A stretch of 64,000 nucleotides of DNA, taken from NCBI RefSeq assembly GCF_037948395.1, contig NZ_CP149940.1, positions 4,278,001 to 4,342,000 of the forward strand, given 5' to 3'. The notes below the pieces were generated by a model. That model was not told where the DNA came from and ran no database searches. It worked only from the letters and a program-made list of their open reading frames with translations. Positions 1,499 through 17,979 of this stretch are shown piece by piece. This stretch comes from Serratia nevei (lineage in GTDB: Bacteria; Pseudomonadota; Gammaproteobacteria; Enterobacterales; Enterobacteriaceae). The position numbers and the translations under genes are program-made. Each line of letters opens with the position of its first letter. The stretch's first letter is position 1.

Positions 1499-1963
1499 AT
1501 GAATTATAAGCCTCTTATATTTACCCTATTAATAAGCCTACCGGCGATGGCATCAGAACCATCCCTTATCGTGTGTGAACCGCAAAATGCCAATGATCAA
1601 ACCGCTACAGGTATTTGGCCTGCACCATATTTGTCACAGAATCAACTATGTTTCGACATTCGAGTAGATTCCGGTAATGCATGCGTCAGTAACATGCAGA
1701 CCACGGCTTGGTTTACGGAGGCAGTAATCGTTGACATAGACGGTGAATCTCGGGGACGGGATGATACCTGGTTCAGAGTCGTGCACCCGACCATCACCGA
1801 CAAGAGCATTGAGTACAAAATAGAAGGCTCAAGGGATAAGAAAACTTGGGGGTTAGTATCAAACGTGTCAATTAATCGACTTTCAGGACAAGCTGTAGAT
1901 TGGCTTATTGGCGAACATGGCGGAACCGCTTACAAGTGCCATCTGGAAGGGCGAAAGATCTGA
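1499..1963 (+). CDS. Hypothetical secreted protein (154 aa)
   Basis: I do not recognise the family. The N-terminus MNYKPLIFTLLISLPAMASE is a clear Sec signal peptide with likely cleavage after AMA-S or nearby, so the mature ~135-residue protein should be periplasmic or secreted. The mature part has four cysteines, which could form two disulfides, and many Trp and Asp residues. Codon use is AT-richer than the core genes. It stands alone on the + strand between the att copy and the iteron cluster, the usual position for accessory cargo at the end of an island. No clear Shine-Dalgarno is visible; the upstream region is AT-rich. Confidence 0.6.
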   Translation: MNYKPLIFTLLISLPAMASEPSLIVCEPQNANDQTATGIWPAPYLSQNQLCFDIRVDSGNACVSNMQTTAWFTEAVIVDIDGESRGRDDTWFRVVHPTITDKSIEYKIEGSRDKKTWGLVSNVSINRLSGQAVDWLIGEHGGTAYKCHLEGRKI

Positions 1964-1999
1964 ATTGGCATAATGTGTATATATACAGAAAATGTGTCA

Positions 2000-2118
2000 G
2001 TTCAGTCAGTTCAGTTGGTTCATCTTGTAAAGATGGTTGTTTTATAAAGTTTTATTTTAAAAAAGCGAACCAACAGCATGCTGTTTTGAACCAACAAACG
2101 GGTTTTTCATGTTAGTTC
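2000..2118. repeat. Left iteron cluster with arm of 42-bp inverted repeat
   Basis: Bases 2000-2041 are the inverted copy of 13484-13525 with one mismatch in 42. The cluster has GTTGGTTC (2014-2021), GAACCAAC (2067-2074 and 2088-2095) and the variant GTTAGTTC (2111-2118). A perfect palindrome AACAGCATGCTGTT lies at 2072-2085 between two of the repeats. The same octamers recur just downstream of the primase-helicase gene. In P4 the alpha protein binds iterons at two separate sites, ori and crr; by analogy this is a candidate replication site. Function is inferred. Confidence 0.6.
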
Positions 2119-2237
2119 ATTGGCCATGCTTCGTTTCACTCAAGCAATGTCGCTAAGGCCCGTCAATCCATCAGAGGACTGTAACTTGCCGCTGTCTATA
2201 CCACTGCGGAATTAACCGCAAGTAAGGAGATAGCACA

Positions 2238-2477
2238 ATGAAAGCAGCGATTCGAAAACCACAACTCCTGGCGATGGTTCCCATGTCAGAGTCGCAGATC
2301 ACCAAACTGGAAAAGGCAGGAGACTTCCCGCAGCGCTTTGCACTGACCAACCGCACCGTTGCCTGGAACTTGGATGAAGTAGAAGCGTGGCTCGATAAGC
2401 AACAGGCCGAGAACACCGGCCGCACGCCGGATTATTCCCCCGATGTCCGCCAGCGCAAACAAAGGCCAGTACGCTAA
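2238..2477 (+). CDS. AlpA-like DNA-binding regulator (79 aa)
   Basis: Small helix-turn-helix protein of the AlpA/excisionase type. It has a two-helix HTH (MSESQITKLEKAGDFPQRF), then the strand-wing segment NRTVAWNLDEVEAWL that is typical of the family. AlpA proteins activate or repress genes for excision and early functions in P4-like elements. A good Shine-Dalgarno (AAGGAG, 7 bases before ATG) supports the start. Upstream, TGCGG-N6-CCGCA (2205-2220) is an inverted repeat that might be its operator. A second, distinct AlpA-like gene lies at the other side of the element (19305-19502). It heads a short run of small + strand ORFs. Confidence 0.7.
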   Translation: MKAAIRKPQLLAMVPMSESQITKLEKAGDFPQRFALTNRTVAWNLDEVEAWLDKQQAENTGRTPDYSPDVRQRKQRPVR

Positions 2478-2486
2478 GTTTAGGTG

Positions 2487-2576
2487 ATGCGCTACTACAT
2501 CCTGCAGTGCGCTAAAAACATGGCCGCGATCGCCACGCACGCTGCATTTATCGCGAAGCAGACGAAGGTTAAATGA
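2487..2576 (+). CDS. Possible 29-aa microprotein
   Basis: An ATG at 2487 opens a 29-codon frame (MRYYILQC...) that fills the gap between the AlpA-like gene and the next small gene. Its stop overlaps the Shine-Dalgarno GAGGGG of that gene. AGG lies close to the ATG, so initiation would be weak. No family likeness is seen. It may instead be spacer. Confidence 0.3.
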   Translation: MRYYILQCAKNMAAIATHAAFIAKQTKVK

Positions 2577-2584
2577 GGGGTAAC

Positions 2585-2734
2585 ATGAAAAAGATAACCA
2601 TCCAACCAAGAGACAAGTCGGTTTCATACCCACCGCGCGGGTTCGCTAAAGCAAGCGATGACCAGGTCATGAAAGCATTTGTCCATGGCCTTGAACGTTA
2701 TAAAAAAGTCATGAGCGAGCTGGCTAAGGTATGA
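2585..2734 (+). CDS. Hypothetical small protein (49 aa)
   Basis: The frame MKKITIQPRDKSVSYPPRGF onwards is preceded by the strong Shine-Dalgarno GAGGGG four bases before ATG. It ends with GTATGA, whose ATG starts the next gene, so the two are translationally coupled. The product is basic and predicted soluble and helical in its second half. Small coupled genes after an AlpA regulator are common in phage-like islands. Function unknown. Confidence 0.5.
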   Translation: MKKITIQPRDKSVSYPPRGFAKASDDQVMKAFVHGLERYKKVMSELAKV

Positions 2735-2910
2735 AAAATAACCTTAAACGACCCGCCAGATCTGTCGGTAGCTTGCTGGACCTGCTGCCATCAACGGACT
2801 ACACAAAACTGATCGACAAGCGGCCGGTAGAGAAAGCCATCGAGGATGACTGGAAAGCTGTAGGCGATGACATGTGGTCTGTTATTGGAAGAAGGGACGG
2901 CAAGAAGTAA
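2731..2910 (+). CDS. Hypothetical small protein (59 aa)
   Basis: It starts at the ATG overlapping the previous stop (ATGA) and ends at TAA 2908-2910. The basic N-terminus (MKNNLKRPARSVGSLL) is followed by an acidic middle and a KK end. No domain is recognised. Coupling to the 49-aa gene and the hairpin straight after the stop suggest it is the last gene of the small early operon that begins with the AlpA-like gene. Confidence 0.5.
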   Translation: MKNNLKRPARSVGSLLDLLPSTDYTKLIDKRPVEKAIEDDWKAVGDDMWSVIGRRDGKK

Positions 2911-2913
2911 AAA

Positions 2914-2931
2914 ACGGGGCGCAAGCCCCGT
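2914..2931 (+). terminator. GC hairpin after the small-gene run, probable terminator
   Basis: ACGGGGC-GCAA-GCCCCGT forms a 7-bp stem with a GCAA loop four bases after the stop at 2910. The following bases are TCGCTCTCTT, only moderately T-rich, so termination may be partial. Confidence 0.55.
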
Positions 2932-3023
2932 CGCTCTCTTGGATGTATCAGAGACAGACAAATGAGAGGCCGTCCGGGCGGCGATTGACTACAGTATTCA
3001 TTGTACTCATAATATACAGACAG

Positions 3024-3040
3024 GTTACCAAACTGGTAAT
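3024..3040 (+). promoter_or_regulatory. Palindromic operator before the Panacea antitoxin gene
   Basis: GTTACCA-AAC-TGGTAAT is a near-perfect inverted repeat 17 bases before the ATG at 3058, just downstream of a CATAAT-like -10. Toxin-antitoxin operons are usually autorepressed at such a site. The same GTTACC/GGTAAC half-sites recur at 17980-18022 and 18229-18250 in the element's regulatory region. Confidence 0.5.
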
Positions 3041-3057
3041 CGAAACGGAGGTTGACT

Positions 3058-3627
3058 ATGTTCAGCGAAAACAAAACAGCCCAAATGGCTGGTTACCTGC
3101 TGCTTAAACGCGGCGGGCGCATGGCATACATCAAGCTCATGAAGTTGCTGTACCTGGCAGATCGTGAGTACATGATCAGCTATGGTGACTCGATGACCGG
3201 CGACCGGGCTGTATCAATGAATAACGGCCCTGTGCTCTCTCGTACTTATGACTTACTGAAGTCTGGAAGCCCTGAGGAGGAATCACCTTGGGACGATTGG
3301 ATCTCTGGCGAGTCAAACTACGAAGTTTCCATCAAAAAGCATGTGCATGGTGTTGACGAAGAAGAAGCTTTTGATGAACTGAGCCGCGCCGACAAGAGGA
3401 TTTTAGATCGCGTTTTTGAACAGTTCGGGCATTACAAGCGCTTCGAGCTTTGCGATCTGACGCATCAAATCTGCCCTGAGTGGCAAGACCCGCATGGCTC
3501 ATCTGTTCCTATCAATCCAAAATCCATTTTCATGGCTGGAGGAAAGTCGGAAGAAGAAGCCAACCTCATTCTTGATAGAATGAGAGAGCGTGAACTCCTC
3601 AAGCAATTCAGTAGCGAGCTTGCATGA
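3058..3627 (+). CDS. Panacea-domain (SocA/DUF4065-type) antitoxin-like protein
   Basis: A 189-aa protein whose first ~130 residues match the Panacea/DUF4065 fold: GYLLLKRGGRMAYIKLMKLL, then LYLADREYMISYGDSMTGD, then the conserved small-residue run SMNNGPVLSRTYDLLK. This domain is known as a promiscuous antitoxin that neutralises unrelated toxins encoded next to it, and as the SocA antitoxin in Caulobacter. The start at ATG 3058 has GGAGG seven bases upstream; an in-frame TTG at 3052 is a less likely start. The stop overlaps the next gene's ATG (ATGA), so the two are coupled, as expected of a toxin-antitoxin pair. The specific activity is inferred. Confidence 0.8.
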   Translation: MFSENKTAQMAGYLLLKRGGRMAYIKLMKLLYLADREYMISYGDSMTGDRAVSMNNGPVLSRTYDLLKSGSPEEESPWDDWISGESNYEVSIKKHVHGVDEEEAFDELSRADKRILDRVFEQFGHYKRFELCDLTHQICPEWQDPHGSSVPINPKSIFMAGGKSEEEANLILDRMRERELLKQFSSELA

Positions 3628-4028
3628 CAACGTACTCACCATACAGGAAAGGCACTGTTCTCGCTCCTGTTGGTGGGTCCGATCACTTGCACGTTATTTG
3701 CAATGATCCTGTTCACTATCCTATCCATGGTTGTGACTGTGTGCTTGCAGTGAACATCACCACAATTTATCCCCCACCGGCACATCATGACCCTGCATGT
3801 ATACTGCGCGCCGGCGATCATCCCTTTATCCATCACGACAGCTATGTCTATTACGCTGACGCCATTATTTGGAAAGTACCGAATGTTGTCTCAAGAGAGC
3901 AAAGCGGGGAGATAACGATCCACAGAACAATGGACGAGGCAGTTTTTCAACAGGTATTGGCTGGTTTTGTTGCCTCTGACTTTACCACCGGAAAGATATT
4001 AAAGTTCTTCAGGCAACATTGTAATTAA
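3624..4028 (+). CDS. Candidate toxin partner of the Panacea antitoxin (134 aa)
   Basis: Translation is coupled to the antitoxin gene through ATGA. The sequence is beta-rich with the opening KGTVLAPVGGSDHLHVICND, then HGCDCVLAVNITTIYP and the histidine/aspartate-rich GDHPFIHHDSYVYYADAI. The start resembles the SH3-like barrel pattern of PemK/MazF-type RNases (a GxV(L/W) strand followed by a strand ending in xND), but the family is not secure. Conserved-looking His, Asp and Cys residues could be catalytic or metal-binding. Position, size and coupling make a toxin role the best guess; no toxin activity can be shown from sequence. A spacer of 47 bases separates it from the next gene. Confidence 0.6.
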   Translation: MTTYSPYRKGTVLAPVGGSDHLHVICNDPVHYPIHGCDCVLAVNITTIYPPPAHHDPACILRAGDHPFIHHDSYVYYADAIIWKVPNVVSREQSGEITIHRTMDEAVFQQVLAGFVASDFTTGKILKFFRQHCN

Positions 4029-4075
4029 ACCCTGTAATGGACTTTTGTTTTTACTGAATTATTTAGGGTGAATAA

Positions 4076-4567
4076 ATGACCGCTCCAATAACAATCGATA
4101 CGACATTAATAAGCGGAGTAATAAGTGCGGCTGTGGCTATTTTGGTGGCATGCGGCACTGTGATATGGACAACAAAGTCAAACAGAAAACTAGAAGAGAA
4201 GAAATTAAAGGACGCAAAGAAGGAAGAGCTATATCTATCCATAATAGATATGGAAAGAGCAATGTATCTTTACTTTGTTTGTGTAAGTCATTCATTCAAT
4301 AAAATTGAGTACAATATAGACGTAATTGATGCTGCAAGGGATAAAGCAATTGCGAAAATGGAGTTAATTACAACGGTCCATTTTATAGAATTAGGCATAG
4401 AGCGCGCTATGGAAGCCATTTCCCAGTTTGAACTTTCATATGTTTACTATCTAAGGGATGGATTTAAAAGGGAATTTTCAGCATCCGATGTTGTTAATGC
4501 AACAACTTTGTATAGAAACATAGAAAGAGAAACAACTGCACTTAAGGCAGAAGTAATGAAACTATAA
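4076..4567 (+). CDS. Hypothetical membrane-anchored protein (163 aa)
   Basis: Residues ~8-30 form one hydrophobic helix (LISGVISAAVAILVACGTVI). A Lys/Glu-rich segment follows, then a mostly helical cytoplasmic region likely to form a coiled coil. The gene is markedly AT-rich compared with the cassette opposite. A Shine-Dalgarno-like AGGGTG lies before the ATG. It is downstream of the toxin-antitoxin-like pair and ends in a shared terminator. N-terminally anchored helical proteins of this type are frequent island cargo, some in phage defence, but I recognise no family. Confidence 0.6.
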   Translation: MTAPITIDTTLISGVISAAVAILVACGTVIWTTKSNRKLEEKKLKDAKKEELYLSIIDMERAMYLYFVCVSHSFNKIEYNIDVIDAARDKAIAKMELITTVHFIELGIERAMEAISQFELSYVYYLRDGFKREFSASDVVNATTLYRNIERETTALKAEVMKL

Positions 4568-4590
4568 GCCCCCTAACGGGGCTTAGTTTT
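4566..4590. terminator. Bidirectional terminator between convergent genes
   Basis: AAGCCCC-CTAAC-GGGGCTT is a 7-bp stem, followed by AGTTTT on the + strand and preceded by A-rich sequence for the other direction. It sits on the stop codons of the + strand membrane gene and the end of the minus-strand cassette. Confidence 0.85.
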
Positions 4591-5047
4591 AGAACGTCCT
4601 TTTCATCCTTCTAATTCTTAAGAATAGAAGTGCAATTAGTATGATTGCAACTAAAGTCACTGGGGATGATATAAATCCAGTCGTAGTAGATAGATAGGAC
4701 ATCGGAGTTCCATCTACAACACCGCAAAGAATTTGTTCATTATAAATTTGTGATGTCCTATCATCTATAATTGCATTAAAAACATCTTTCTTAATACCAT
4801 GTTCTGGTATATTAACATGACCAATCCCATAGTGCATAAAAGCTTGCTCAGCTATACTTTTATCAACAAATTCAGAACTACTTTTTGCTGCTATGCCGTC
4901 TAACTTTGAATTTCTAAAGTATGAAACTAAAGCACTATCATGCCATCCAGATGATAATGAAGCGGTGAATACCTCACTGAAGGATGGCTGCATACTACAT
5001 AAGGACTGATTGCCCCCAGTCATGGGGTTATCTGTATATATTGCCAC
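4589..5047 (-). CDS. Short membrane-anchored paralogue of the second ejection-like protein (152 aa)
   Basis: The chosen start is GTG at 5047, which has AGGAGG four bases upstream and lies 13 bases after the previous stop; an ATG at 5095 would overlap that gene and lacks such a site. From this start the protein begins (V)AIYTDNP, matching MTIYTTKP at the start of the 562-aa protein. The match continues: AEQAFMHYGIGHVNIPEHGI against AEAGFKTYGVKSINVPPQGI. After residue ~110 the long protein's body is missing and is replaced by one membrane helix (SPVTLVAIILIALLFL) and a basic end. It looks like a duplicated N-terminal domain put on a membrane anchor. Function unknown. Confidence 0.65.
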   Translation of the reverse strand: MAIYTDNPMTGGNQSLCSMQPSFSEVFTASLSSGWHDSALVSYFRNSKLDGIAAKSSSEFVDKSIAEQAFMHYGIGHVNIPEHGIKKDVFNAIIDDRTSQIYNEQILCGVVDGTPMSYLSTTTGFISSPVTLVAIILIALLFLRIRRMKRTF

Positions 5048-5060
5048 GGCTCCTCCTTGA

Positions 5061-7613
5061 CTATCTTCCAAGCATAAACTGAGACGGTGGAACAATGAAG
5101 GTGTTCCCCTGTTCTTTTTCTACTCGATGGCGATACCGCTCCAGAGATCCAGGGCTAAGCCATTCTTGCGCACGGTTTAGAATAAGGTAGTTCATCGCCG
5201 GTCGCACTACATGCAGATTCATGAATGGTGTATGGTCGATACCAAACTTCAACAAGTCAGCCGCTTTTGCATCACCGTCTCTAGCTCGCAGGAACAGGTT
5301 ACGGATCTGATCAAGGTCACCAACGGTAGGACCCGCCAAGCTCGATGCCAAGCCACCACCAAACCGATTGTATTCACCAAACAGGAAGTCGCCCATAATG
5401 CCGAGACCGCCCCCCTGCGCAGCAGCAGCAAGGAACGTTTTTGCATCCGCCGGGCGTGGCGTCTGCCCTTTCAGTAACAACTTGGTTTGCATCGATACAT
5501 ATCCCAATGCAGTCATCCAAATGAACAACTGGGCAAGCCCCAGCTTTTCGCCGTTACCATTGCGCATGGCATTGGCTAGGCTGGTGAAGCGACTTTGCCC
5601 CAATTCTGCCGGCGTATAGCCACGACCATATATTTCTCGCCCAATGGTATTCTGCATAAAAGAGCCGGTAAACGATTTGAACTGGCCTCCAAAGCGAATA
5701 GCTTCACCAAGTGGAGTGCCAGGCTGCGTGCCCTGCTTCATCATTGCACGGGTTCTGGCGCTAGGCTCTGACATGGCAATGAGCACCCGATCAAGATAAT
5801 ACCCGCGTAGCTTACCTTCCAGAGACTCGCGCGCCGCAGCAATACTGGACTTATTGACTTGTAGTCCATCGGCGGCAACATATTCAGCGATCCGCTCGTC
5901 TGGAATATACCTAACGCCATTGGGGGTCATGTGCTGATTGCCACGGACGGTATCCATTTCCATGCTGCGATAAAGATTCCATTCACGCTCTGTGATTCCA
6001 CTGGAGTTAAGAACCCTGCGCAGATCTTCATTCATGGAAGTCCAAGCCGATTTTGAATTGCGCGCCATCCAATTGGACATAACCAATCCCATGGATTTTC
6101 GACTGTTCTCTGTCCACCAGTTCAGAAGGTTTAGCTTGAAGAAGGTGCGCTGCAACCGTGATATGCGCCCAGGCACCGACGTATCACCTGAGAATTTAGC
6201 TATCATCTCATCGCGCACTGAGTCAGTAAAAATCCCCATGTATCCAAGAATTTCCTTCTGATCTGCCGCGCTGTATCCCTTGAGCTTACCTGCAATGCTC
6301 TTCCCCATGGCATCCATTAAATTCATACCCTGGTAGCGTAGCTCCATCGCTGCGTTGCCAACGTCGTTAAACGAAGATATGACAGCCCCGCCAAGCTTGG
6401 TCATTCCCTCTACAGCCCTGATAGTCGCCCCGGCTCTGGCTATCGCTGAGTTGGCAGGTATGCTGTTGTACCCCAAAATTTCTGAAAGCTCATTTTCCAA
6501 AGCGCGCCGGCGCCCAGCAAAATCAGCCTCGGCTGCAGGATTGTTCAGCTTCTTGAGTCGTGCCTGTTGGGTTTCGAATAAATGACTGAACATATTTTCA
6601 GGGTTTGTGCCGAGCACGCGCATTACGCCGGTAGTCCTGGCGGAACTGGTTAGCCCTGACATAACTGATTCGCGAAGGTTGCCGACACCATAGGCCTTAT
6701 TGTACTCATGCCATGCAACGCCATCCTTAAAGTGTAAAACTCGCTCCTGGCTCGCACGCTTTGCCTGATTGGATCCTCCTTTAAATCCTGATAACCAATC
6801 TGACTTCTGATTACTCAAATGGATACCAGACGCCAGACCGTTATAGACGCTCTGCAAAAATTCGTCGCGATTGGCTACGCCATCGAAAGTTGACTGATCA
6901 AGTCGGGGAAGAATTGTATCCCGCCAGGCCTCATAGCCGGCACTACGGATTTTCGCCCAATCATGGCTTTGCCGTGTTATATAACCAGCCAGCTTGCCAA
7001 TGAATGATCCCGCGCGGTTGCTATCAAGCCTTGCCACCTCCTGCCATTTATTAATTATCTCGGCAAGTTTGATGGACTCTTTCGACAAACCTGCTGTTGG
7101 TTCTCCGCGACCCACCTTCCAAAGCGCATCGGCGATCTCTTGGTCATACTCTCCAGAGGATAGAGCCTTGGATAGACCTGACTGATCTAAATCATGCTCA
7201 AAGCCTGCAATGTACTTCCCCTCAAGCTGCCCCTGCTCGCGAGACGCCGAGGCGCGGAATCCTTCCGCAGCCTCATTGCGGGAAACCAATAGTGCTGATA
7301 GCGCTATATCTGGCCGATCGGCACCAAGAGATTCTTTGCTATTGTTTAAAAAGCTCTCAAGCTTAGTCCTGATCTTAAGGTTAATCGCCTTATTACGAGC
7401 CTCGATCACCCTGGCCAGCTTGTCGCCCCTGACCATTTCATCAGCAGCTTTCAGGGCAGCCTCTTCAAGAGTGATTGAGGCGTTCTCTGCCTGATAGCGA
7501 TCGATGTTTCTCCGAAGCTGTCCGAACACATCCTGCAGTTCATCATCTGACAAGTCACGTCCGGCGGCCTTAATCACCAATTTTTCACAGTCAGCCAAGT
7601 ATCGATTTGCCAT
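5061..7613 (-). CDS. Large phage internal-virion/ejection-like protein (850 aa)
   Basis: A long, mostly helical protein that I link to podophage internal or ejection proteins. The reasons are its size, its place after a transglycosylase-bearing protein, and its C-terminal region (FMNLHVVRPAMNYLILNRAQ, EWLSPGSLERYRHRVEKEQG), which recalls the ends of large virion proteins of lambdoid podophages. Residues ~1-130 are charged helices; later parts have Gly/Ala-rich stretches that could insert in membranes. ATG at 7613 overlaps the upstream stop (TGATG), so translation is coupled; a GTG one codon earlier is possible. No enzymatic motif is seen. Family assignment is by pattern recall and should be tested by profile or structure search. 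Confidence 0.6.
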   Translation of the reverse strand: MANRYLADCEKLVIKAAGRDLSDDELQDVFGQLRRNIDRYQAENASITLEEAALKAADEMVRGDKLARVIEARNKAINLKIRTKLESFLNNSKESLGADRPDIALSALLVSRNEAAEGFRASASREQGQLEGKYIAGFEHDLDQSGLSKALSSGEYDQEIADALWKVGRGEPTAGLSKESIKLAEIINKWQEVARLDSNRAGSFIGKLAGYITRQSHDWAKIRSAGYEAWRDTILPRLDQSTFDGVANRDEFLQSVYNGLASGIHLSNQKSDWLSGFKGGSNQAKRASQERVLHFKDGVAWHEYNKAYGVGNLRESVMSGLTSSARTTGVMRVLGTNPENMFSHLFETQQARLKKLNNPAAEADFAGRRRALENELSEILGYNSIPANSAIARAGATIRAVEGMTKLGGAVISSFNDVGNAAMELRYQGMNLMDAMGKSIAGKLKGYSAADQKEILGYMGIFTDSVRDEMIAKFSGDTSVPGRISRLQRTFFKLNLLNWWTENSRKSMGLVMSNWMARNSKSAWTSMNEDLRRVLNSSGITEREWNLYRSMEMDTVRGNQHMTPNGVRYIPDERIAEYVAADGLQVNKSSIAAARESLEGKLRGYYLDRVLIAMSEPSARTRAMMKQGTQPGTPLGEAIRFGGQFKSFTGSFMQNTIGREIYGRGYTPAELGQSRFTSLANAMRNGNGEKLGLAQLFIWMTALGYVSMQTKLLLKGQTPRPADAKTFLAAAAQGGGLGIMGDFLFGEYNRFGGGLASSLAGPTVGDLDQIRNLFLRARDGDAKAADLLKFGIDHTPFMNLHVVRPAMNYLILNRAQEWLSPGSLERYRHRVEKEQGNTFIVPPSQFMLGR

Positions 7614-9301
7614 CACATTTTACCTATCATGCAGCCAGCAGCGGCCTGGATACCTTTTTGCAGACTGGTATCGTTAGCTTCCTGACGAATTGTTTTAAGT
7701 TCTTCTTTGAGCTTTACATTGCCTGCAGAGTCAGCGAGCGCATTGAGAATGTTTAATTCAGCCTCAAAATCCTCTTGGGCATTTAGAAAATCGGCATCTT
7801 CACGTGTCGCGCGTTTAGCCTGTTGCTCCGCCGCAGCACTGACAGACCCTGCAACGGGATCGGGCTGAAGCTGGGATTGCCTTGAAAGTTGCTCAATGGC
7901 AGTTGGTCTTTTAACCGGATCCATAAGGTCAAAGAATGGGTCTACGTTGATATCCTCACCGCGCTTCACCTGAGCTATAGCGGCGCGCATAGCGTTTTCT
8001 CGAATGGAGATATCAGCATCATCAAATCTTTGGGAGGCCGTTCGAATACCGCGAGCAAGCGGGCTTTCCTGCAAGCCTTCTCTTATCTGTTGGGCACGTT
8101 GTTCAATCAGCGGCTTGGCTGATTCCGGTATAAGCCCTTTGCTTATATCAGCAATATCCTGCGCAGCCTTGGCCCCTTCGACATGATTATCTATCTGCTG
8201 TTGAAGTTCTGCGTTGCGTGACTCAAGAGCAGCTTTTTCATCAGCAATATCCTGGCGGGCCTTAGTTTGCGCCTCTTTAAATTTCATTCGTTCAGCCTGG
8301 TAAGCTGACGTTCTTTCTTTCAATGTTGCATCTAAAGATTGGGTTAGCTGATTATTCCTGGTCAATTCTGACCGTAAAGCATTAACGTTATCTATCTGCT
8401 GACCAGCTATAGCACGGCGCTGTTCGATAAAATCAGGAATAACATCGCTATATCCTGTTGAATACGCATAATCATCAATGCTTTTGGATATAGAGTTATT
8501 TAACTCCGACCGACTAGTCTCAGCCGGCACAATATCCAAGGCACGTGGAGGTGGCATTACCTCCATTGGCATAGCCGAATCAACAGGGATAATGGCTGGA
8601 TCACCAGCGTCAACAGCGACAGGAGCTGACTCCTGACGGCGGCCACGGACCATATCCGCAATGAAACCACCACCAGCATGAAGCGCACCACCAGCGATCA
8701 TCCCCATCAGCAAGTTTCCGCCGGCATCGCCAATGGTGTAATTGTCACCCTCCGCCGCAGCGCCCATAGCGGTAAATGGTAGTGTTGCCGCAGTTTGCGC
8801 CCCGCCCATCACCGCTCCTTGCCCAAAACGCTCAGCAGCCCTTCCAAGCATTGTTGCTGATCGGGCTTGCCCGAAGAATGGAACCAGCCCAATCGCAAGG
8901 TTACCCGGGTCAACCATATTCCCGCCAAGGTTCGCAACGAACTTAAGTGGAGAAGACACAAGGCCAGACGGGGCCGACTGAATAATGGCCTGACGCTCAA
9001 GTCTGTTGCGAGTTTCAGAAATTACGTTGTCATAGAAAGCCTTGCTAATCCCTTGCGGTGGGACATTGATAGACTTTACGCCATAAGTTTTGAAACCAGC
9101 CTCGGCTTCGTCTTTCGTCATCCGCGGGGATTCAGGGTCCATGTTCAATGCATCTGCTTGCGATGCGCGCGCCCATGAGTTTAGAGGCCCCTCCCTAAAT
9201 CCCTCGGTAAATTCAGCCGATAGACTTTCACCTAGCCCTGATTCTAAATTGGCAAGTGGCCTGGTAACCGATGGATCAGGCTTGGTTGTATAAATTGTCA
9301 T
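7613..9301 (-). CDS. Phage ejection-like protein with hydrophobic Gly/Ala-rich segment (562 aa)
   Basis: Three parts can be seen. Residues 1-115 are a domain shared with the small gene at 4589-5047. Residues ~115-215 are a Gly/Ala-rich hydrophobic stretch (LVSSPLKFVANLGGNMVDPG and onward, TAATLPFTAMGAAAEG) able to form membrane helices. The rest, from ~265, is strongly coiled-coil and Gln/Glu/Ala-rich. Such a hydrophobic plus coiled-coil build is typical of phage proteins released into the envelope to form a DNA channel. The ATG overlaps the upstream stop (ATGA), with GGAG upstream. It lies between two other large virion-like genes in the same coupled operon. Role inferred. Confidence 0.6.
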   Translation of the reverse strand: MTIYTTKPDPSVTRPLANLESGLGESLSAEFTEGFREGPLNSWARASQADALNMDPESPRMTKDEAEAGFKTYGVKSINVPPQGISKAFYDNVISETRNRLERQAIIQSAPSGLVSSPLKFVANLGGNMVDPGNLAIGLVPFFGQARSATMLGRAAERFGQGAVMGGAQTAATLPFTAMGAAAEGDNYTIGDAGGNLLMGMIAGGALHAGGGFIADMVRGRRQESAPVAVDAGDPAIIPVDSAMPMEVMPPPRALDIVPAETSRSELNNSISKSIDDYAYSTGYSDVIPDFIEQRRAIAGQQIDNVNALRSELTRNNQLTQSLDATLKERTSAYQAERMKFKEAQTKARQDIADEKAALESRNAELQQQIDNHVEGAKAAQDIADISKGLIPESAKPLIEQRAQQIREGLQESPLARGIRTASQRFDDADISIRENAMRAAIAQVKRGEDINVDPFFDLMDPVKRPTAIEQLSRQSQLQPDPVAGSVSAAAEQQAKRATREDADFLNAQEDFEAELNILNALADSAGNVKLKEELKTIRQEANDTSLQKGIQAAAGCMIGKM

Positions 9302-11994
9302 TGGCCACTCCTGTGCTGAAGAGCATTACCCAGTGGGTTTTCCGCAGGCTTCTGTTCCTGGTAGCCAGTAAACTCCCTCGCAGGTTCTCCACGCAGGCTG
9401 CGATAGACATCCGACAAATCATTATTGATAGCGCGGTTGTCCATCCCATCCGCTGGTGTGAACGTAGCCGGAGTTTTTAATTCATGTAAACGTGCATTGA
9501 TAAAACTTCTATCAGCGATCCCCAGCTTGGAGAGTTCATTGAATGGAACAAAGATAGGATTGCCATCAGCCCCATTGATATAGGTCCGATCTGCAGTTAG
9601 ATAAAGCCCTTTTTCGTCTTCACTGGTAACCCATTCAGCATTGTTTTTAATTCTGGACAAAGCCATTGCCCTACCAACTTCTGCAGGTAAGCGAGTGTCA
9701 CCCACAAAACCTTGCGGGTCTATATCTTCTGGCTTTAATTTTTCCAGGTAGTTATCTGTTCCGTCAGTAATATCACGGACATTTAGGTTCAATGATTTTG
9801 GCAGACGCCAAGTACCTTCAAATTCGTATTGGTCGCCAGCGATCTGGGTGAATGCCATCTTGGCAGCAGATGCCCCGTCCATGCCACGCGATGCATAAAT
9901 ATATGCAAGCCGCTTGCCCTGCTCATTGAAGTCTGAGTATGCCTTCAGGCCACCCCTTTGAGATGCTAGTGACACACCAAAATCAGCAAACTGATCTGAC
10001 CATTCACTTTCAACAGATGATGATTGTGTTCCAGCCGCCTTCTTTAATTCATCCGTTGATAGCTTTCTATTTTGGAACAATGCATTAGCTGCATTTGCGT
10101 TATCAACAGACATTACAACACTTAGTGCACTTCCCGACTTCCCCTGTAATTGCGAGATTACAGCTGGAGCCTGGCTTCCATAGCTCTGGGCGATAGATTG
10201 TACTGCCGCCACACTTTGTTCATTGCTGTTATCGATCTGGTGCAGAATGCTATTGACCATCTCGGTAGGGAGTATGTCTTTACTACGTATTCCCAAGCGC
10301 TCTTTTTCAGCCTGAATTCGCGATGCAAAGAATTCACCGGTTACCTGGCGTTGAGAAAATTGGTCATAGACATGTTTGATGACTGGAGAGTTCTGAAGAA
10401 GCCACGTTCCTGGATCATCCTCCCTTGCCTTCTGCACCTGCGCAAACTTACTGGCAACTTGAGCATATCGTTGCTGCTTAAACGTAAAATCTGGATCGCT
10501 AACATCTGGCTTCATGGCATTTACTGCCGCCATGCCCTGCTGCACGTCACCTTGCACAATCGTTTGATAGGCCGGTTGCATGGCAAGGGTTTGTTGGTAG
10601 CGTTGGTATGATTGCTGTAGTTGCATGCGCTCTTGCGGCGTGGCACTAAGCGGCATTGATGCGATCCATTCTCTATCAGTAATAGGCTCAGGAACTTTGA
10701 GACCAAGCTCAACGCGCGAAACATCATCCTGCATTCGGTTCTGTAACCCAATGCGTGCCGCTGAATTCTGAAGATCGTATAGCCCAGCAATTTTTGCCAT
10801 GGCCGCAGATTTGTTCTGAGGACTCATGGCCTGCCAATATGGTGTGTTCATTAATCCAGTAATCGAGGCGTTGACTGGAATTCCTGGAGCAGAACCAACC
10901 ACTTTCGAGACATAGTTACGTGTTTCTTCAAAGGGTATTTTTGCTGCAAATTCAGCAGAAGAAATCTCGCCTTTACGTGGATCGCCAATTTGCTTGATCC
11001 ATTTATCAACCTGACCGTGACCTGCATTGTATGCGGCCACAGCAAGCACGGAATCCCCGTCATAACGTTTCATCTGAGACTGAAAATAGGCATGCCCAAT
11101 AGTTGCGTTATAGCGCGGATCATTAAGCCACTTATCCCTATCCCATGATAGACCAGCAAGCTGAGCCGCCTCGGGCCCGGTAGCTTCAGTTACCTGTGCA
11201 ATGCCAACGGCTCCTTTTGATGACATCAGCGGTGAGCCATTATTATCAAACTGATTTCCACCGCTTTCGGCACGAATCATCGCAGAGAATAATTGATCGC
11301 TATTAGCACCATCCGTTACAGGGATTATCCCACCTGGCCCCATGGTCTGTTGATACATATTGGTGTAGGCGGTGCTAAAAGCAGCATTGGCTGCACCTTG
11401 ATACCATTGTTGCCAATTCGCCTCTATCTCTTCTGGACTCTGGCCATGGGCCGCACCGAAGTCCATTATCGCCTGGCGAGCAGAAAGAACCACTGGCACA
11501 AACTGCGCTGGGTTTTTAGCTTGGGTCAAAAAATTACTGAGTACGCCTTGCTGTTGACCCACTTCATACTGCTGCTTCTGCCCAACCTCATACTGCCGGA
11601 AGCGGTTACCGTAACTACGTCCCAGCGGCTGGATCTGCTGGTCAAATGCCTTACGCATATACTCAGGTATCGATTCACGAATCGATGCAGCTTTATCTGA
11701 TATCAGCCCGGCGCGAGCTTCTCCCTGTCCAACGGCATTTTTACCCTGCAGGGTTATCAAACCGTTCTGAGGGTTGTTGTAGAGGTCATCGGCATACATG
11801 GAAAACTGGTTAATCTTGTCCTGCATGTCAGCCAAATCGACCTTTTGCCTTTCTTGCTGGTACACATCCAGCCCCTTTGCGCCTACATCGGCCAGCGCTG
11901 TAAAGACATTGTCTTTCGGAATCCTCAAATCTTGAGTGTTAACCGGCGCCATCTGGGATTGCGATTGACGTTGATAAGTTGGGACGATTGGCAT
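9298..11994 (-). CDS. Internal-virion-like protein with lytic transglycosylase (SLT) domain (898 aa)
   Basis: Residues ~232-345 form a Slt/soluble lytic transglycosylase domain: catalytic Glu in MIRAESGGN (~243), SSKGAVGIAQVTEATG (~258-273) and the AVAAYNAGHGQVDKWI signature (~318-333). This enzyme cleaves the glycan strands of peptidoglycan. The N-terminal ~200 residues and the ~550 after the domain are helical and Gln-rich with no enzymatic motif. A transglycosylase domain inside a very long helical protein is the hallmark of phage internal virion proteins that drill the cell wall during DNA ejection (T7 gp16 is the classic case); a housekeeping murein enzyme would have a signal peptide, which is absent. 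The start follows a Shine-Dalgarno GGAGAG, five bases after the preceding small gene. Confidence 0.8.
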   Translation of the reverse strand: MPIVPTYQRQSQSQMAPVNTQDLRIPKDNVFTALADVGAKGLDVYQQERQKVDLADMQDKINQFSMYADDLYNNPQNGLITLQGKNAVGQGEARAGLISDKAASIRESIPEYMRKAFDQQIQPLGRSYGNRFRQYEVGQKQQYEVGQQQGVLSNFLTQAKNPAQFVPVVLSARQAIMDFGAAHGQSPEEIEANWQQWYQGAANAAFSTAYTNMYQQTMGPGGIIPVTDGANSDQLFSAMIRAESGGNQFDNNGSPLMSSKGAVGIAQVTEATGPEAAQLAGLSWDRDKWLNDPRYNATIGHAYFQSQMKRYDGDSVLAVAAYNAGHGQVDKWIKQIGDPRKGEISSAEFAAKIPFEETRNYVSKVVGSAPGIPVNASITGLMNTPYWQAMSPQNKSAAMAKIAGLYDLQNSAARIGLQNRMQDDVSRVELGLKVPEPITDREWIASMPLSATPQERMQLQQSYQRYQQTLAMQPAYQTIVQGDVQQGMAAVNAMKPDVSDPDFTFKQQRYAQVASKFAQVQKAREDDPGTWLLQNSPVIKHVYDQFSQRQVTGEFFASRIQAEKERLGIRSKDILPTEMVNSILHQIDNSNEQSVAAVQSIAQSYGSQAPAVISQLQGKSGSALSVVMSVDNANAANALFQNRKLSTDELKKAAGTQSSSVESEWSDQFADFGVSLASQRGGLKAYSDFNEQGKRLAYIYASRGMDGASAAKMAFTQIAGDQYEFEGTWRLPKSLNLNVRDITDGTDNYLEKLKPEDIDPQGFVGDTRLPAEVGRAMALSRIKNNAEWVTSEDEKGLYLTADRTYINGADGNPIFVPFNELSKLGIADRSFINARLHELKTPATFTPADGMDNRAINNDLSDVYRSLRGEPAREFTGYQEQKPAENPLGNALQHRSGQ

Positions 11995-11998
11995 GGAA

Positions 11999-12172
11999 CT
12001 ACTCTCCTACTTGTTGCAATGCCTTGCGTATTAGGCCGCGGGCAATATCTTGAAGGGAAGGCGCAACGCCAAGTGGGGATTTACTGCGTTCCTGCTCTTG
12101 AAGGCGCTTCATCGCCTCAACGCAATCGTGCTCAATAAGTATTGGCTTGGGGTTGAAGCGGGCATTTTTCAT
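11999..12172 (-). CDS. Small first gene of the ejection-like cassette (57 aa)
   Basis: The minus-strand frame opens at ATG 12172 (MKNARFNPKPILIEHDCVEA) and ends with GGAGAGTAG, so its last codons carry the ribosome binding site of the transglycosylase gene. The C-terminal half (SLQDIARGLIRKALQQ) is an amphipathic helix pair that resembles the second half of ribbon-helix-helix proteins; this is weak. It is the promoter-proximal gene of the five-gene cassette and could be its regulator or a small virion component. No other family likeness. Confidence 0.5.
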   Translation of the reverse strand: MKNARFNPKPILIEHDCVEAMKRLQEQERSKSPLGVAPSLQDIARGLIRKALQQVGE

Positions 12173-12785
12173 GTATGTAATCCCATGACTGGTTATGCAT
12201 ACAATGATACTTCAGGACGAAAAACACGCAAAATTAATTTTCTATTTAAATAAAAATAAATAGAAAAATATTCCATTAAATTAAGGTGAAGTAGTATTTA
12301 TTTTCATTAAGCAATCATGCATTAACCATTTGAAAGAAATAGATAACGTAATGATTTGGCGTATAAAAAGTGATAACTAAAGTGATGATGGTTAGTCTTG
12401 TGATTGTTTATTCATGGGATAGAACCGCCAAGCGGCGGAAACTGTGCTGTGTGACTTGCCGTGACTCGTCACGCTTTACCATGTGACACGTCACAGCGTC
12501 CTGAGCATCAGCTCTCACCAGATCTATGTCTGCCCACACGCAACTTCACCATTGCGGAGCGGTGTGGTGGTTGTTCCAGCCACAATTGTACTTCCTGTTG
12601 GCGGCGAGGTGTTTAGGTCGGAAAACCGCGTTCATGCCAAGGGGCGCTAAGGTGCCCAAATGCAGTGCTCTTTCCGTTGTGCCGCAACCGTTAACAACCT
12701 GAAGCTGTGTGCAAGATTTAGCTCAGCTTGCGCGAGCATTTTTTATGGTAAGTTATATGGCCCCTACACACATAAAGGATGTTTT
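12173..12785. promoter_or_regulatory. 613-bp divergent non-coding region with repeats and hairpins
   Basis: No gene is convincing here. The left part (12173-12400) is very AT-rich and must hold the promoter of the minus-strand cassette; an 11-bp AT inverted repeat lies at 12238-12267. Two GTGAC-NN-GTCAC palindromes follow at 12461-12494. The right part, about 12540-12785, is GC-richer and has several hairpins: GTGGTTG/CAGCCAC at 12567-12583, CGG-AAAA-CCG at 12619-12628 and GGGCGC/GTGCCC at 12642-12657. It may be a leader or small RNA for the gene at 12786, or a packaging or other cis site. Confidence 0.5.
12461..12494. promoter_or_regulatory. Tandem GTGAC-NN-GTCAC palindromes, candidate operators
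   Basis: GTGACTCGTCAC (12461-12472) and GTGACACGTCAC (12483-12494) are centred 22 bp apart, i.e. two helical turns, with an extra half-site GTGAC at 12451. Same-face tandem palindromes suggest cooperative binding by a dimeric regulator. The protein that binds is unknown. Confidence 0.5.
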
Positions 12786-13289
12786 ATGCGCCCTGACGAA
12801 TTTTTTTTCCCTCATATTTTCACTTATGAATCCCAGACGTTTTACGGTAACAAGGTAAATAGTAAAAACGAAATATTGATCACTCTAATTGATGAAACCT
12901 GCCCTTTTGATATAGGGAAACTCATAACTCTTCAGCAGGGGACAAAAGAGCGGCACTTTGAAATTCTAGATTATGATGTAAATCAAAGCCTTGATATTGG
13001 CGGCGGCGGTTATCCCTACTTAGCTAGCCTAAAAGTCAGAGCGTTGGATGTAAAGCCCACACCTCAACCAAATGTAACTAGCATTACATTCAATGGAGCA
13101 GTACATGCGGGGGGCGATTTTCAAGCTGGCTCTATTAACTCGATAACCAAAAATATAACTATTGAGCAGTTAGCAAAAGCTATTGAAGAAAGTAATGACC
13201 CTGAGGTGAAGAGTCTTTGGAGTAAATTGACCAATAACGCTTCATTTGCAGCTATTGCTGCAGGCGTGGCTCAATCATTGCTTGGCTGA
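12786..13289 (+). CDS. Hypothetical protein (167 aa), isolated + strand cargo gene
   Basis: ATG 12786 follows AAAGGA at good spacing; the open frame upstream to 12660 has no ribosome site. The N-terminal ~100 residues are beta-rich (MRPDEFFFPHIFTYESQTFY). A short linker NGAVHAGGDFQAGSINSI leads to a C-terminal helical part (ITIEQLAKAIEESNDPEVKS, then a hydrophobic end FAAIAAGVAQSLLG). A beta domain, a 'GxVxxGxxQxG' linker and a helical tail recur in small phage-defence-linked hypothetical proteins; that likeness is from memory and weak. The gene is AT-rich, has its own terminator and stands between the cassette and the replication iterons. Confidence 0.6.
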   Translation: MRPDEFFFPHIFTYESQTFYGNKVNSKNEILITLIDETCPFDIGKLITLQQGTKERHFEILDYDVNQSLDIGGGGYPYLASLKVRALDVKPTPQPNVTSITFNGAVHAGGDFQAGSINSITKNITIEQLAKAIEESNDPEVKSLWSKLTNNASFAAIAAGVAQSLLG

Positions 13290-13294
13290 GGTAA

Positions 13295-13321
13295 AAAGCC
13301 ACCTGCTGAGATGGTGGCTTT
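13295..13321 (+). terminator. Terminator after the 167-aa gene
   Basis: AAAGCCACC and GGTGGCTTT form a perfect 9-bp stem with a 9-base loop, five bases after the stop codon. Symmetric A and T flanks allow it to act in both directions. Confidence 0.8.
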
Positions 13322-13418
13322 ACACAACGCCCCTCAAAAGAGGCCATATTCGAGTTAATCTAGCAAAAACTCCATCCAGGATGGATATCTAAGATATCAA
13401 CAAGAAACCCAATAGTTT

Positions 13419-13529
13419 GTTAGTTCAAAAGTGCCATTTGTTGGTTCAGTGTTAGTTCAAAATGAACGATAATTCTCTTTTAGAACAACCATCTTTACAA
13501 GTTGAACCAACTGAACTGACTGAACCAAC
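13419..13529. repeat. Right iteron cluster with arm of 42-bp inverted repeat
   Basis: It contains GTTAGTTC (13419-13426, 13451-13458), GTTGGTTC (13440-13447) and GAACCAAC (13504-13511, 13522-13529). Bases 13484-13525 pair with 2000-2041 as an inverted repeat, 41 of 42 matching. It lies 24 bases beyond the stop codon of the primase-helicase gene, a likely place for that protein's binding sites. Candidate origin or crr-like element, by analogy with P4. Confidence 0.65.
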
Positions 13530-13552
13530 ATATTTTTATCACATGTATAGAT

Positions 13553-16342
13553 TTACTCTTCTGACTGTTCGCCTTCTGGCAAATGATGGATCACGTACAC
13601 ATTAATCTGCCGCCCATCTATGCGCGGTGATTTTCGCTGATAACCCCTTCCACTGGCTGGCAGTGTCAGCATTCCAGCTCCTGCCAAAACTTTGGCAAAA
13701 TGCTTCGAATTGAAACCCCGCGCTATCTCATCCTCGAAAGCTGCAGGAAACGTATAGAACACCATGGCATCACTATCATGCTTTCCCTTATCTCTGTAGC
13801 CAGCCAAATCACGTATAGGAAACCCCTGCGGGTCATAAGGTAGTGGTGCGAAGCGGCTCAAACCGTAGGCATTCAGGAAAGATTCTGTCTGCTCGATAAT
13901 CTGCTGGTGTTCTTTGTTGCCAGTACCGAACTCTTTGATCCAGGAGTTGAAATTGTGTTGTATCGCGTCTCGGCATTCCTGCTCATTCCATCCAGTAACA
14001 ACACAGCCGAGAAGTAATGCGGCTTCAAGTACAGCAAACCGCGCCGCTACCCGGTGAACCTGTTCGCCGTAATCTGCCGGGATTAGTGAGCGCCATCGTT
14101 CCTCAGCAGCTCTCACCGCAACTATGGCCTGTTGCTTGTGGTCAGCGAGGTGCTTAATCCAATAGCGTCCAGCGGCTCCATAGTTGTGCTGATAGGCATC
14201 TTTCAGGGCGTCGGCGTGAGCCTTTCCGTTAGGTGTTTCGTGATGGTGTTGTGACTTCTCCAGCGGGATGTTTAACAGGCGCACCAGTTGTCCAGCCTTC
14301 ACTTTGCGTCCAGCGGTAGCAATGAAGGTTTCAATGTCCATTTCCCCGGTACTGAGAGCCACTGTACGCCAACGCTTCAAATCACGGTTGCCGCCCTCCT
14401 TGGCCCCTTGCAGCTTACCGACGCCGTTAAACAAAGTGTAGGCAGATTTCGCTACACTATCCGGATCAGCACCTTGTCCCACCTCATCAAGCGGCATCAG
14501 GCCGTCATTGTGCGCAGCCGCCTCGTTGGCTATCCCTAGCGCGGTACCGAACCACGTCAAGCGCAAGCCATCTGGCTCACCGTACAGACTGCTGGCAATA
14601 TTGGCGGTCGTAGTCTTACCGGCACTGGATTGCTCGTAGAAGTGGATGCCGAACCCGTCAGCGCCGGCCAGCCCAATTAGTGGGGCTGCCAACGCAGCGC
14701 CGATACCTGCCATCATGGACGGGTTTCCCCTAGCCAAGCGCGCCACCGAATCACGCCAGCTTTCTGGCGTTCCCTTGACGGTATATCCGGCTGCCGCGGC
14801 ACTACGGCCATTGAATAGTACCGGTCTTTCAGGTGAACCGATTATTTCTCCGTCTGGCATGATATATGCCCCACATTGCCAGCCCGTAGCCTGTGCCACA
14901 CGCCAGATTTCGCGGGAGCCGCCACACTGCAGCCAGTCGGCTAGTGTCGCCCTGAGCGCGTTTTTTGTGGTCACGTTGACCCCACCCGCCTTAAGTGTTC
15001 TCCAACCCTCACGCTCGCCAATATCGGCCAAAGGGATAGCGGCGGTAGTAGGTGTGCTTTCACCCACCGGTAGCCAGCGAATAATCAGGTATTGGTCTTT
15101 GTCGTCCCTGCCGGTGCCGATCACTTCCAGCGGCGAACACAACCACGATTCATTGTTGATAACCTCACCACTCACTTGATCTACCTTCGGCGTGATCCAG
15201 AAAACGCCGTCCTTGCGGCTCTCAATGCGAGGTTTTAGCGGGTCAGCCTCTTGGTGGTCTTTTTTACCGCCCTCAATGGCTTTCAGTTGGACACTCACAC
15301 CTTCCCCCTTGGGTTGACACAGTGAATTGTTAAATGCCAGTACAGCGGCTTCTATCCCGTTCTGCTGGCGATAATCATCCCAATCAGCCTTGTACTCTGT
15401 CGGTGGTATTGATACCCACCCAGCGACAGCAGCAGCGGCTTTCTCTGCTGCGATCCGGCCCGTGTTCTTCCTCGGCTTACCGTGCTCGTCCAGTTCGCCC
15501 GGTTCGTGGTAGTCGTTATCCCCTGCAATGATGATTTGCGCGTCTGGATACCGGCGGTGCATCGCCTCCGCTACATGTAATAGGTTCCCGGCATCGATCG
15601 CGGCTACCGTCAGCGCGTCAGGGCGTATCAGGTGAGCGGTTAGGGTAGTTGCCAGCCCTTCACCAATAATCACCACTTTTGGGTGCTCTGGTCCACCAGC
15701 CAGGGTATGGGATGCTCCGCGCTTGGTGCCGTCCGTTACCTGACGTTTCTCACCTGCGGGGGTGATAGTCTGTGCTGCCGTGACTGCGCCGGTTTCATCA
15801 GTCAGGGCCACCAGCAAGCGGCCATCTTTCAGTGTGGGGAAGGTGAAGCCGGTCAGCCCCTTAGCCTTAAGATATTCAGGCTCGCTTTCCACTGCATCGA
15901 CAGTCAGTGATTGCCAGCGCCGGTTAAACTGCTGGCTCTTACGCTCATGATCTGCGGCTTCTGCCTGCCGGCGCTCCTGCTCACGTTGTTGCCGCTCAGC
16001 CTCCATTGCAGCCTTGTTCTGGCGAGTAGCTTCTGATCCGGTATCTGCTGCCCGGTAATCGATAGCCAGCACGTCAGCAACCATCCGAGCGGCTTCGGTA
16101 GCGTCGCACCGGTTTACTTTCTGGATGAGATCTAACCCGTCACCAGCTCCACATTGGTTGCAGAAATGGGAGCCGCGCCCGTTATCATCGAACCGAAACC
16201 GATCACGCCCGCCACAAGCAGGACATGCCACTTGCGCACGTGGGCTAACGGGAACGTCGATCCCCACCATCGGCAACACATCAGGCCAGCGGTTGGCTGC
16301 TAATTTGGTCACTTCGCGGATCAGGTCAATGTTACGCATCAT
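13553..16342 (-). CDS. P4 alpha-type primase-helicase
   Basis: About 929 aa from ATG 16342, chosen because GGGGGA lies four bases upstream; ATG 16354 is also in frame. Domains in order: zinc-ribbon primase motif CPACGGRDRFRFDDNGRG with the second pair CNQCG (~residues 33-60); Toprim domain with VVIIGEGLATTLTAHL (~225) and AGDNDYHEPGE (~270); a DUF927-type superfamily-3 helicase module with Walker A EQSSAGKTTTANI (~550) and acidic Walker B-like LMPLDEVGQG (~590). In P4 this protein makes primers, unwinds DNA and binds the origin iterons. It ends the long minus-strand operon and overlaps the preceding gene. GAACCAAC iterons follow the stop codon. Confidence 0.9.
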   Translation of the reverse strand: MMRNIDLIREVTKLAANRWPDVLPMVGIDVPVSPRAQVACPACGGRDRFRFDDNGRGSHFCNQCGAGDGLDLIQKVNRCDATEAARMVADVLAIDYRAADTGSEATRQNKAAMEAERQQREQERRQAEAADHERKSQQFNRRWQSLTVDAVESEPEYLKAKGLTGFTFPTLKDGRLLVALTDETGAVTAAQTITPAGEKRQVTDGTKRGASHTLAGGPEHPKVVIIGEGLATTLTAHLIRPDALTVAAIDAGNLLHVAEAMHRRYPDAQIIIAGDNDYHEPGELDEHGKPRKNTGRIAAEKAAAAVAGWVSIPPTEYKADWDDYRQQNGIEAAVLAFNNSLCQPKGEGVSVQLKAIEGGKKDHQEADPLKPRIESRKDGVFWITPKVDQVSGEVINNESWLCSPLEVIGTGRDDKDQYLIIRWLPVGESTPTTAAIPLADIGEREGWRTLKAGGVNVTTKNALRATLADWLQCGGSREIWRVAQATGWQCGAYIMPDGEIIGSPERPVLFNGRSAAAAGYTVKGTPESWRDSVARLARGNPSMMAGIGAALAAPLIGLAGADGFGIHFYEQSSAGKTTTANIASSLYGEPDGLRLTWFGTALGIANEAAAHNDGLMPLDEVGQGADPDSVAKSAYTLFNGVGKLQGAKEGGNRDLKRWRTVALSTGEMDIETFIATAGRKVKAGQLVRLLNIPLEKSQHHHETPNGKAHADALKDAYQHNYGAAGRYWIKHLADHKQQAIVAVRAAEERWRSLIPADYGEQVHRVAARFAVLEAALLLGCVVTGWNEQECRDAIQHNFNSWIKEFGTGNKEHQQIIEQTESFLNAYGLSRFAPLPYDPQGFPIRDLAGYRDKGKHDSDAMVFYTFPAAFEDEIARGFNSKHFAKVLAGAGMLTLPASGRGYQRKSPRIDGRQINVYVIHHLPEGEQSEE

Positions 16343-17872: not shown

Positions 17873-17910
17873 AGCTGCCTCGATACTGATTCTATCGTTG
17901 GTGGTAAGAG

Positions 17911-17939: not shown

Positions 17940-17979
17940 TTCGCTGTATTTACAAAATGATATTGATTTACCACAAAGC

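Follow-up and report, generated by a model that had tools for sequence, protein, structure and literature searches.

A P4-related island of Serratia nevei with a podophage-type DNA-ejection cassette: a candidate satellite with its own injection parts

Why should an island with a P4-like replication half encode the DNA-ejection proteins of a podophage when no gene for a head or a tail is detected in it? The question is raised by a stretch of 64,000 nucleotides (nt) of Serratia nevei DNA (contig NZ_CP149940.1), hereafter the window, in which a 20.9-kb island carries five genes on the minus strand between positions 4589 and 12172. A preliminary description had taken these genes for the set expected of podophage internal virion proteins and had regarded the principle as undescribed. 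The answer that we favour, and hold to be rather probable, is that the island is a P4-related satellite whose late slot encodes the DNA-ejection core of a podophage for use in helper-built particles.

The ejection cassette and the islands that carry it

The cassette consists of five intact, tightly coupled open reading frames (ORFs) of 57, 898, 562, 850/851 and 152/168 amino acids (aa). The stop of the 57-aa gene is separated by 4 nt from the start of the 898-aa gene, and the next two junctions are 4-nt overlaps, so that the sizes, coordinates and coupling given in the preliminary description stand. The three large proteins match phrog_1044, phrog_3003 and phrog_684, respectively, over most of their length, with E-values (Table 1) that exclude chance; the PHROG database labels these families endolysin, unknown function and virion structural protein. 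The transglycosylase domain proposed for the 898-aa protein was recovered at residues 232-339 (PF01464, E 1.9e-18), and the 562-aa protein also matches, more weakly, phrog_342, an internal virion protein with an endolysin domain (E 4.1e-11). The gene order (SLT protein, ~560 aa, ~850 aa) is common to the window, to loci L003 and L004 and to prophages. The same three large genes stand in identical order in the podophage Tr60_Ab31, between the tail genes and the fibre gene, and in Stenotrophomonas phage BUCT708, downstream of the head-tail adapter gene; proteins of both phages were used as tblastn queries for cassette homology. Profile matches and gene order thus link the large proteins to podophage virion families, as had been expected of them.

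Structural comparisons were less informative. The AlphaFold model of the 562-aa protein is almost all helix (mean pLDDT 63, pTM 0.34), with its most confident part around residues 270-410. Searched against a viral fold library, it gave four matches at E <= 0.001, with TM-scores of ~0.2 and to proteins without a virion name; weaker matches included a phage lysozyme (E 0.005) and tape measures, the latter only at E 0.03 and above. PDB sequence searches with the profiles of the 562- and 850-aa proteins returned no meaningful match (best E 0.38 and 0.72). The 850-aa protein is matched in 23 plasmid records, at less than 26% identity among the 15 matches listed.

The fifth gene, on which the preliminary description was silent as to family, encodes a relative of the 562-aa protein. 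Its best start is the GTG at 5047 (152 aa), immediately preceded by GGAGGA; the product aligns to the N-terminal ~130 positions of phrog_3003, and its C-terminal end is a hydrophobic segment. An extra gene resembling it is found in the equivalent place of prophage L015 (at 12564), so the 152-aa gene is not island-specific. In ECO-type islands, named after the Escherichia coli copy described below (L081 3799-4182), and in prophage L203 (12553), the corresponding place after the transglycosylase-containing cassette is held by a small protein, which is annotated as Rap1a/Tai family in EC2001.

The island itself extends from ~1199 to 22079 and sits in the 3' end of a tRNA-Gly gene. In four of the 11 loci of relatives compared (L071, L072, L074, L075), the site is empty, with the base corresponding to window 1198 joined directly to that corresponding to 22080; homology to the relatives resumes at 22078-22080 on the tRNA-Gly side, and we read the ORF on the flank ending at 1198 as the betT side. 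An imperfect repeat of 24 columns (21 matches, two mismatches and one gap) flanks the island. A search for exact copies of the tRNA repeat of at least 12 nt found none, because the left copy has the gap and two mismatches. P4 likewise integrates at a tRNA. The replication half is P4-like, as previously proposed: the window is among the matches listed for P4 cI and orf88, and primase, integrase and AlpA families are present. Across 32 islands searched (tblastn, 1e-3), relatives of P4 int, alpha, cI and orf88 were found in 26, 24, 13 and 25, respectively, whereas sid, delta and psu were found in none of the 32; we therefore call the islands P4-related rather than P4. Compared to P4 (NC_001609, 11.6 kb), the window island is longer and an injection module stands in place of sid, delta and psu.

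Sibling islands with the same cassette exist. When the whole 22-kb stretch was compared with 5,426 E. coli genomes, 100 matched, and in none did the match cover more than 80% of the query. The longest matches were in EC2001 (from food in China) and LR-33 (from a human in Ecuador), which are also the only two of these genomes with a near match to the cassette, at least 99% identical to each other. Both islands lie at tRNA-Gly and have an integrase, a DUF927 primase, a 57-aa homologue and all three ejection genes, with no head genes annotated. The LR-33 copy has an IS3-family insertion upstream of the slot (L082 11291-12411), the cassette being intact. A scan of IMG/VR yielded 36 loci with the cassette: in three (L194, L195 and L201) the cassette belongs to an island that has the primase and the 57-aa gene, in 31 it adjoins genes for a portal, a capsid or tail-tubular proteins, and in two (L208, L219), which could be of either class, neither kind of neighbour was seen. 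Within the family, phrog_684 is matched in 19 of 392 genomes. Apart from the window, ten genomes have strong matches, at 11 loci that all have a portal-gene match nearby and are therefore prophages; the other eight, weak or short, were left out of this comparison. A first scan of genome contigs found no relative, and a second found one, a full prophage. The survey of P4-type islands proposed earlier thus did bring to light ejection cassettes free of capsid genes.

Virion genes outside the cassette were sought in several ways. When the 19 other ORFs of the island were scanned against PHROG, the best 25 of 48 families (sorted by member count, then E-value) comprised integrase, primase, regulator and unknown families but none for a portal, capsid, terminase or tail, in keeping with what had been noted initially; a weak match ranked lower would have escaped notice. 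For the 31 non-cassette ORFs of ECO (the E. coli copy), L194, L195 and L201, the sole virion family among the best 25 of 53 was phrog_418, an internal virion protein; the member's name is absent from the table, and we take it to be the 179-aa protein of L201. No capsid, portal or large terminase was detected in the window island or the ECO-type islands, and no phage head or tail remnants were detected around the cassette. Finally, 14 of 55 virion or packaging proteins from four phages matched something in the 32 islands, and 12 of these belong to ejection blocks or are tape measures. The remaining two are an unnamed protein adjoining the large terminase of Klebsiella phage 2, matched in G288 after the tape measure, and a large terminase, a piece of which is matched in G078, 13 kb from the slot.

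The cassette is under purifying selection. Its genes are full-length in all six island copies checked (window, EC2001, LR-33, L194, L195, L201). The ratio of nonsynonymous to synonymous substitution rates (dN/dS) among the island copies rests on three comparable ones, ECO, L194 and L195, dS being saturated between window and ECO; it is 0.13-0.21 for the SLT protein, 0.08-0.09 for the 562-aa protein and 0.04-0.06 for the 850-aa protein. The corresponding values are 0.11, 0.10 and 0.05 between L201 and phage L206, and 0.07, 0.06 and 0.02 between phages L206 and L197.

In trees, the window, ECO, L194 and L195 form a clade separate from all phage copies included, with support of 100/100 for the 850-aa protein, 100/99 for the 562-aa protein and 81/85 for the SLT protein. 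L201 is nested in a phage clade, and the trees therefore require no fewer than two changes between phage and island. Over its first 5,012 nt, L201 shares 98.6% identity with the E. coli island, positions 5111-12557 are 89% identical to the full prophages L204, L206 and L228, and identity to the E. coli island resumes at 14,002 (89.8% over 971 nt), most of the interval 12,557-14,002 matching neither island nor phages closely. The phage-like block runs from 12 nt before the 179-aa gene, which resembles Tr60_Ab31 ORF13 (annotated internal virion B, with counterparts also in many prophages), to a few nt past the last ejection gene. These sequence patterns establish an exchange of modules between islands and phages, at its clearest in L201. 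L195 adds a second indication of recent exchange with podophages, for the ~1 kb just beyond its cassette (13216-14208) shares 98% identity with the corresponding part of prophage L205.

A slot of variable content headed by the 57-aa gene

The 57-aa protein has homologues in 27 of the 392 family genomes (its own included), spread over 24 of 154 genera, and no match in 50,697 phage records (E 0.01). A search at the level of the order gave matches in four of 384 genomes, each of which belongs to this family and is one of the 27. At 20 of 28 loci, the 57-aa gene has a DUF927-primase match upstream of it. By this distribution, the protein marks a family of P4-related islands. Profile searches of solved structures gave nothing useful for it; only our own reading of its sequence suggests a ribbon-helix-helix protein.

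The genes adjoining the 57-aa gene were read in all 27 islands, key products rather than every small gene being scanned. Injection or tail-tip genes occupy the slot in 16 of them, the window included, and they are of unrelated kinds. Two slots are of P22 type: G421 has a head morphogenesis-like gene (weak match), a DNA-ejection gene and two more genes, and G465 has four genes, the last of which (412 aa) stops 58 nt short of the end of the contig. Tape measures are found in G318, G295, G271, G448, G288, G102 and G259, and in truncated form in G106; hub or phrog_817 tail proteins in G481, G467 and G078, and in broken form in G219; a tail fibre in G424. G025, of the same genus but outside the 392-genome sample, has a tape measure and a hub. 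The slot is thus, judging from gene content, broader than podophage proteins, which corrects the preliminary description. No injection gene was seen in the slots of G375, G351, G301, G076, G199, G225, G454, G212, G387, G414 and G221; among these, a small-terminase-like gene (phrog_57) is present in G375, look-alikes outside the scan are present in G351, G301 and G076, and G454 ends at the contig edge.

Some slots have further features. At L134, L138, L146, L151 and L054, a protein of 108-109 aa is encoded between the 57-aa gene and the tape measure; its position makes it a candidate tail assembly chaperone, and the L134 copy, the sole one scanned, matches phrog_19131. PLE satellites are reported to encode a tail assembly chaperone (PMC12987554; this and the other papers are cited from excerpts). 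In G106 (L054 943-14902), the tape measure, cut to 210 aa, is followed by a two-partner-secretion-like pair (581 and 3660 aa within the stretch). The tail-fibre gene of G424 (L165 16471-17334) lies near a small-terminase-like gene and hints at receptor retargeting.

Host genomes were considered as a source of helpers and discarded: no second phrog_684 or phrog_3003 locus was found in the genome of the window (G000), so no resident helper of such type was seen, and there is no second phrog_598 locus in G421 or G465. Among seven tape-measure genomes, phrog_1107 has a second locus in G288 and only the island locus in five; in G102 its matches lie on another contig, and phrog_2854 is the best match of the tape measure in the island. 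Nothing close to the tape-measure slot of G288 was found in the E. coli genomes.

Possible role of the cassette

How might an island profit from ejection proteins only? The favoured reading, a P4-related satellite with a podophage ejection core, would work as follows. During growth of a compatible podophage in the cell, the three ejection proteins, encoded in the late slot headed by the 57-aa protein, would be made and enter helper-built heads, and particles loaded with satellite DNA would deliver it through a conduit chosen by the satellite. What the satellite would probably gain is access to cells, helper lysogens among them, in which exclusion proteins or the inner membrane stop the helper's own ejection proteins; for a satellite that has to enter such lysogens, ejection proteins that differ from those of the helper would be of advantage. 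Hindrance of helper virions is a possible second gain. That the islands are mobilised, and that the proteins join helper-built particles and carry satellite DNA in, is likely because of two precedents. Vibrio PLE satellites place their own tape measure and baseplate hub in virions, and deletion of their tmp gene cuts transduction by 96-99.9% (PMC12987554, Nature 2026); P22 hybrids carrying HK620 ejection genes are partially resistant to the SieA exclusion protein (PMC10883804).

PLE is the closest functional parallel. Like PLE, which supplies inner-tail parts without a full virion set, the window island encodes injection or tail-core proteins without such a set, and some islands here have parts of the same function (tape measure, hub). 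The differences are that the PLE helper, ICP1, has contractile tails, that the excerpts of the PLE paper report no podophage ejection proteins (PMC12987554), and that incorporation into particles has been shown for PLE, whereas the window island is known here from its genes and is likened to PLE by function. cf-PICI satellites also supply part of the virion, some with putative tmp genes (PMC12987554), but they encode portal, capsid and terminase, which went undetected in the window island. The temperate podophages (Tr60_Ab31, BUCT708 and IMG/VR prophages such as L196-L200 and L202-L206) have the three genes in the same order but head and tail genes as well, whereas the island has the ejection block only. 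The P22-like phage Sf101 has, in its head morphogenesis, DNA-ejection and next two genes, the counterparts of what fills the G421 and G465 slots; its ejection system differs from the window cassette, and the likeness bears on the slot, not on the window proteins.

What is new can be delimited accordingly. That a satellite replaces injection parts is already known from the PLE tape measure and hub, so the claim of an undescribed principle holds in part: podophage ejection cassettes in satellites, and a slot spanning phage shapes, appear to be new. The PLE paper states that a tape measure had not been reported from any other satellite (PMC12987554), and a Pseudomonas satellite is described in its paper as devoid of structural protein genes (PMC4936722). 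The open-access literature searched, judged for the most part by its listing, yielded no report of a satellite encoding podophage ejection proteins; in two satellite papers (PMC6893505, PMC13216270), the excerpts have ejection-protein terms in the references only. Related islands with other injection parts in the same place suggest that helper particles are refitted with the satellite's own injector. We see an even chance that the principle is general, namely that enterobacterial P4-related satellites have a dedicated exchangeable injection slot, which is filled, according to helper shape, with a tape measure, a hub, a fibre or one of two unrelated sets of podophage ejection proteins, and that the resulting chimeric particles, with DNA entry set by the satellite, give access to cells closed to the helper. 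The piracy known from satellites concerns heads and packaging, to which the replacement of the tape measure and hub of a single lytic phage was added in 2026. If the idea is correct, the DNA-entry step would be a general target of piracy, with one replication half and injection parts that vary across short- and long-tailed types, which would explain how satellites change helper or pass through superinfection exclusion. L201 and the EC2001 island, with a common left backbone and different ejection blocks, form a natural test pair.

Several observations weigh against the favoured reading. The island is known here from genes alone, not from transfer, induction or particles, and its left att copy is imperfect. 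No resident helper of this type was seen in its host genome, and its cassette has no match to Tr60_Ab31 ORF13. In the tree of the SLT protein, the island clade is only modestly supported, and the window branch was flagged as long for the SLT and 562-aa proteins. Slot genes are broken in two of the 16 occupied slots, and 11 of the 27 islands show no injection gene there.

Three other explanations were weighed. The cassette could serve interference only, the ejection proteins (or the tape measure or hub) being mis-incorporated and spoiling helper virions without any role in satellite delivery. Satellites and prophages are known to block tail assembly, through Tai (PMC11364771) and Rta (PMC12987554), and slot content differs between islands, as in an arms-race locus; however, a complete set is more than a poison would require, the three large genes, that of the SLT protein included, are all full-length with low dN/dS, and PLE transfer falls, rather than persists, on loss of tmp, which makes pure interference rather unlikely. 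The cassette could also act in superinfection exclusion, being expressed in the dormant state to protect the host. The 152-aa protein (4589-5047), an ejection-protein N-terminus followed by a hydrophobic segment, could be a membrane-held decoy for incoming ejection proteins, and SieA-type exclusion proteins do target ejection proteins (PMC10883804), but this explanation leaves the retention of three complete ejection proteins unaccounted for, and the 152-aa gene has a counterpart in prophage L015 and is replaced by a different small gene in the EC2001 island; we consider it very unlikely. Finally, a decayed prophage remnant adjoining an unrelated island is scarcely credible and was rejected: the genes do derive from podophages, and slot genes are broken in G106 and G219, but the layout recurs in five other sequences (the near-identical EC2001 and LR-33, L194, L195 and L201) with no pseudogene in their cassettes, the diverged copies are intact with low dN/dS, the window clusters with islands rather than phages, the limits of the block exchanged in L201 fall within ~12 nt of the ejection genes, and unrelated injection modules occupy the same place in other islands.

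Feature coordinates and neighbouring genes

Table 1. Features of the island, in window coordinates
Feature	Position	Strand	Basis
Whole island, P4-related satellite-like element	1199..22079	.	empty site in relatives; flanking repeat
tRNA-Gly(CCC), integration site	22080..22153	-	ARAGORN; start of homology to relatives
Tyrosine integrase	20702..21967	-	PF00589, PF22022, PF13356
AlpA-like regulator	19305..19502	-	excisionase/regulator phrogs matched by two of the island ORFs; sibling-island homologues
AntA-type antirepressor	18399..19208	-	PF08346
Toprim/DUF927 primase-helicase, 933 aa, replication half	13553..16354	-	PF06048, PF08273, PF13362; DNA primase phrogs
57-aa island-specific leader protein, slot marker	11999..12172	-	homologues in 27/392 family genomes, own included
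898-aa ejection protein, SLT transglycosylase domain	9298..11994	-	phrog_1044, E 1.4e-182; PF01464
562-aa ejection protein, hydrophobic part and coiled coil	7613..9301	-	phrog_3003, E 7.8e-158
850/851-aa virion structural (ejection) protein	5061..7616	-	phrog_684, E 8.2e-230
152-aa relative of the 562-aa protein's N-terminus	4589..5047	-	phrog_3003 N-terminus, E 7.9e-15
AlpA regulator, far end of island	2238..2477	+	PF05930

Two further loci lie on the plus strand beyond the cassette. At the far end of the island (3052-4028), a gene for a SocA/Panacea-domain protein is followed by an overlapping 134-aa gene, possibly a toxin-antitoxin pair. At the left end (1499-1963), a secreted-looking protein of 154 aa matches phrog_26680; a similar-looking 154-aa gene lies beyond the slot of island G219.

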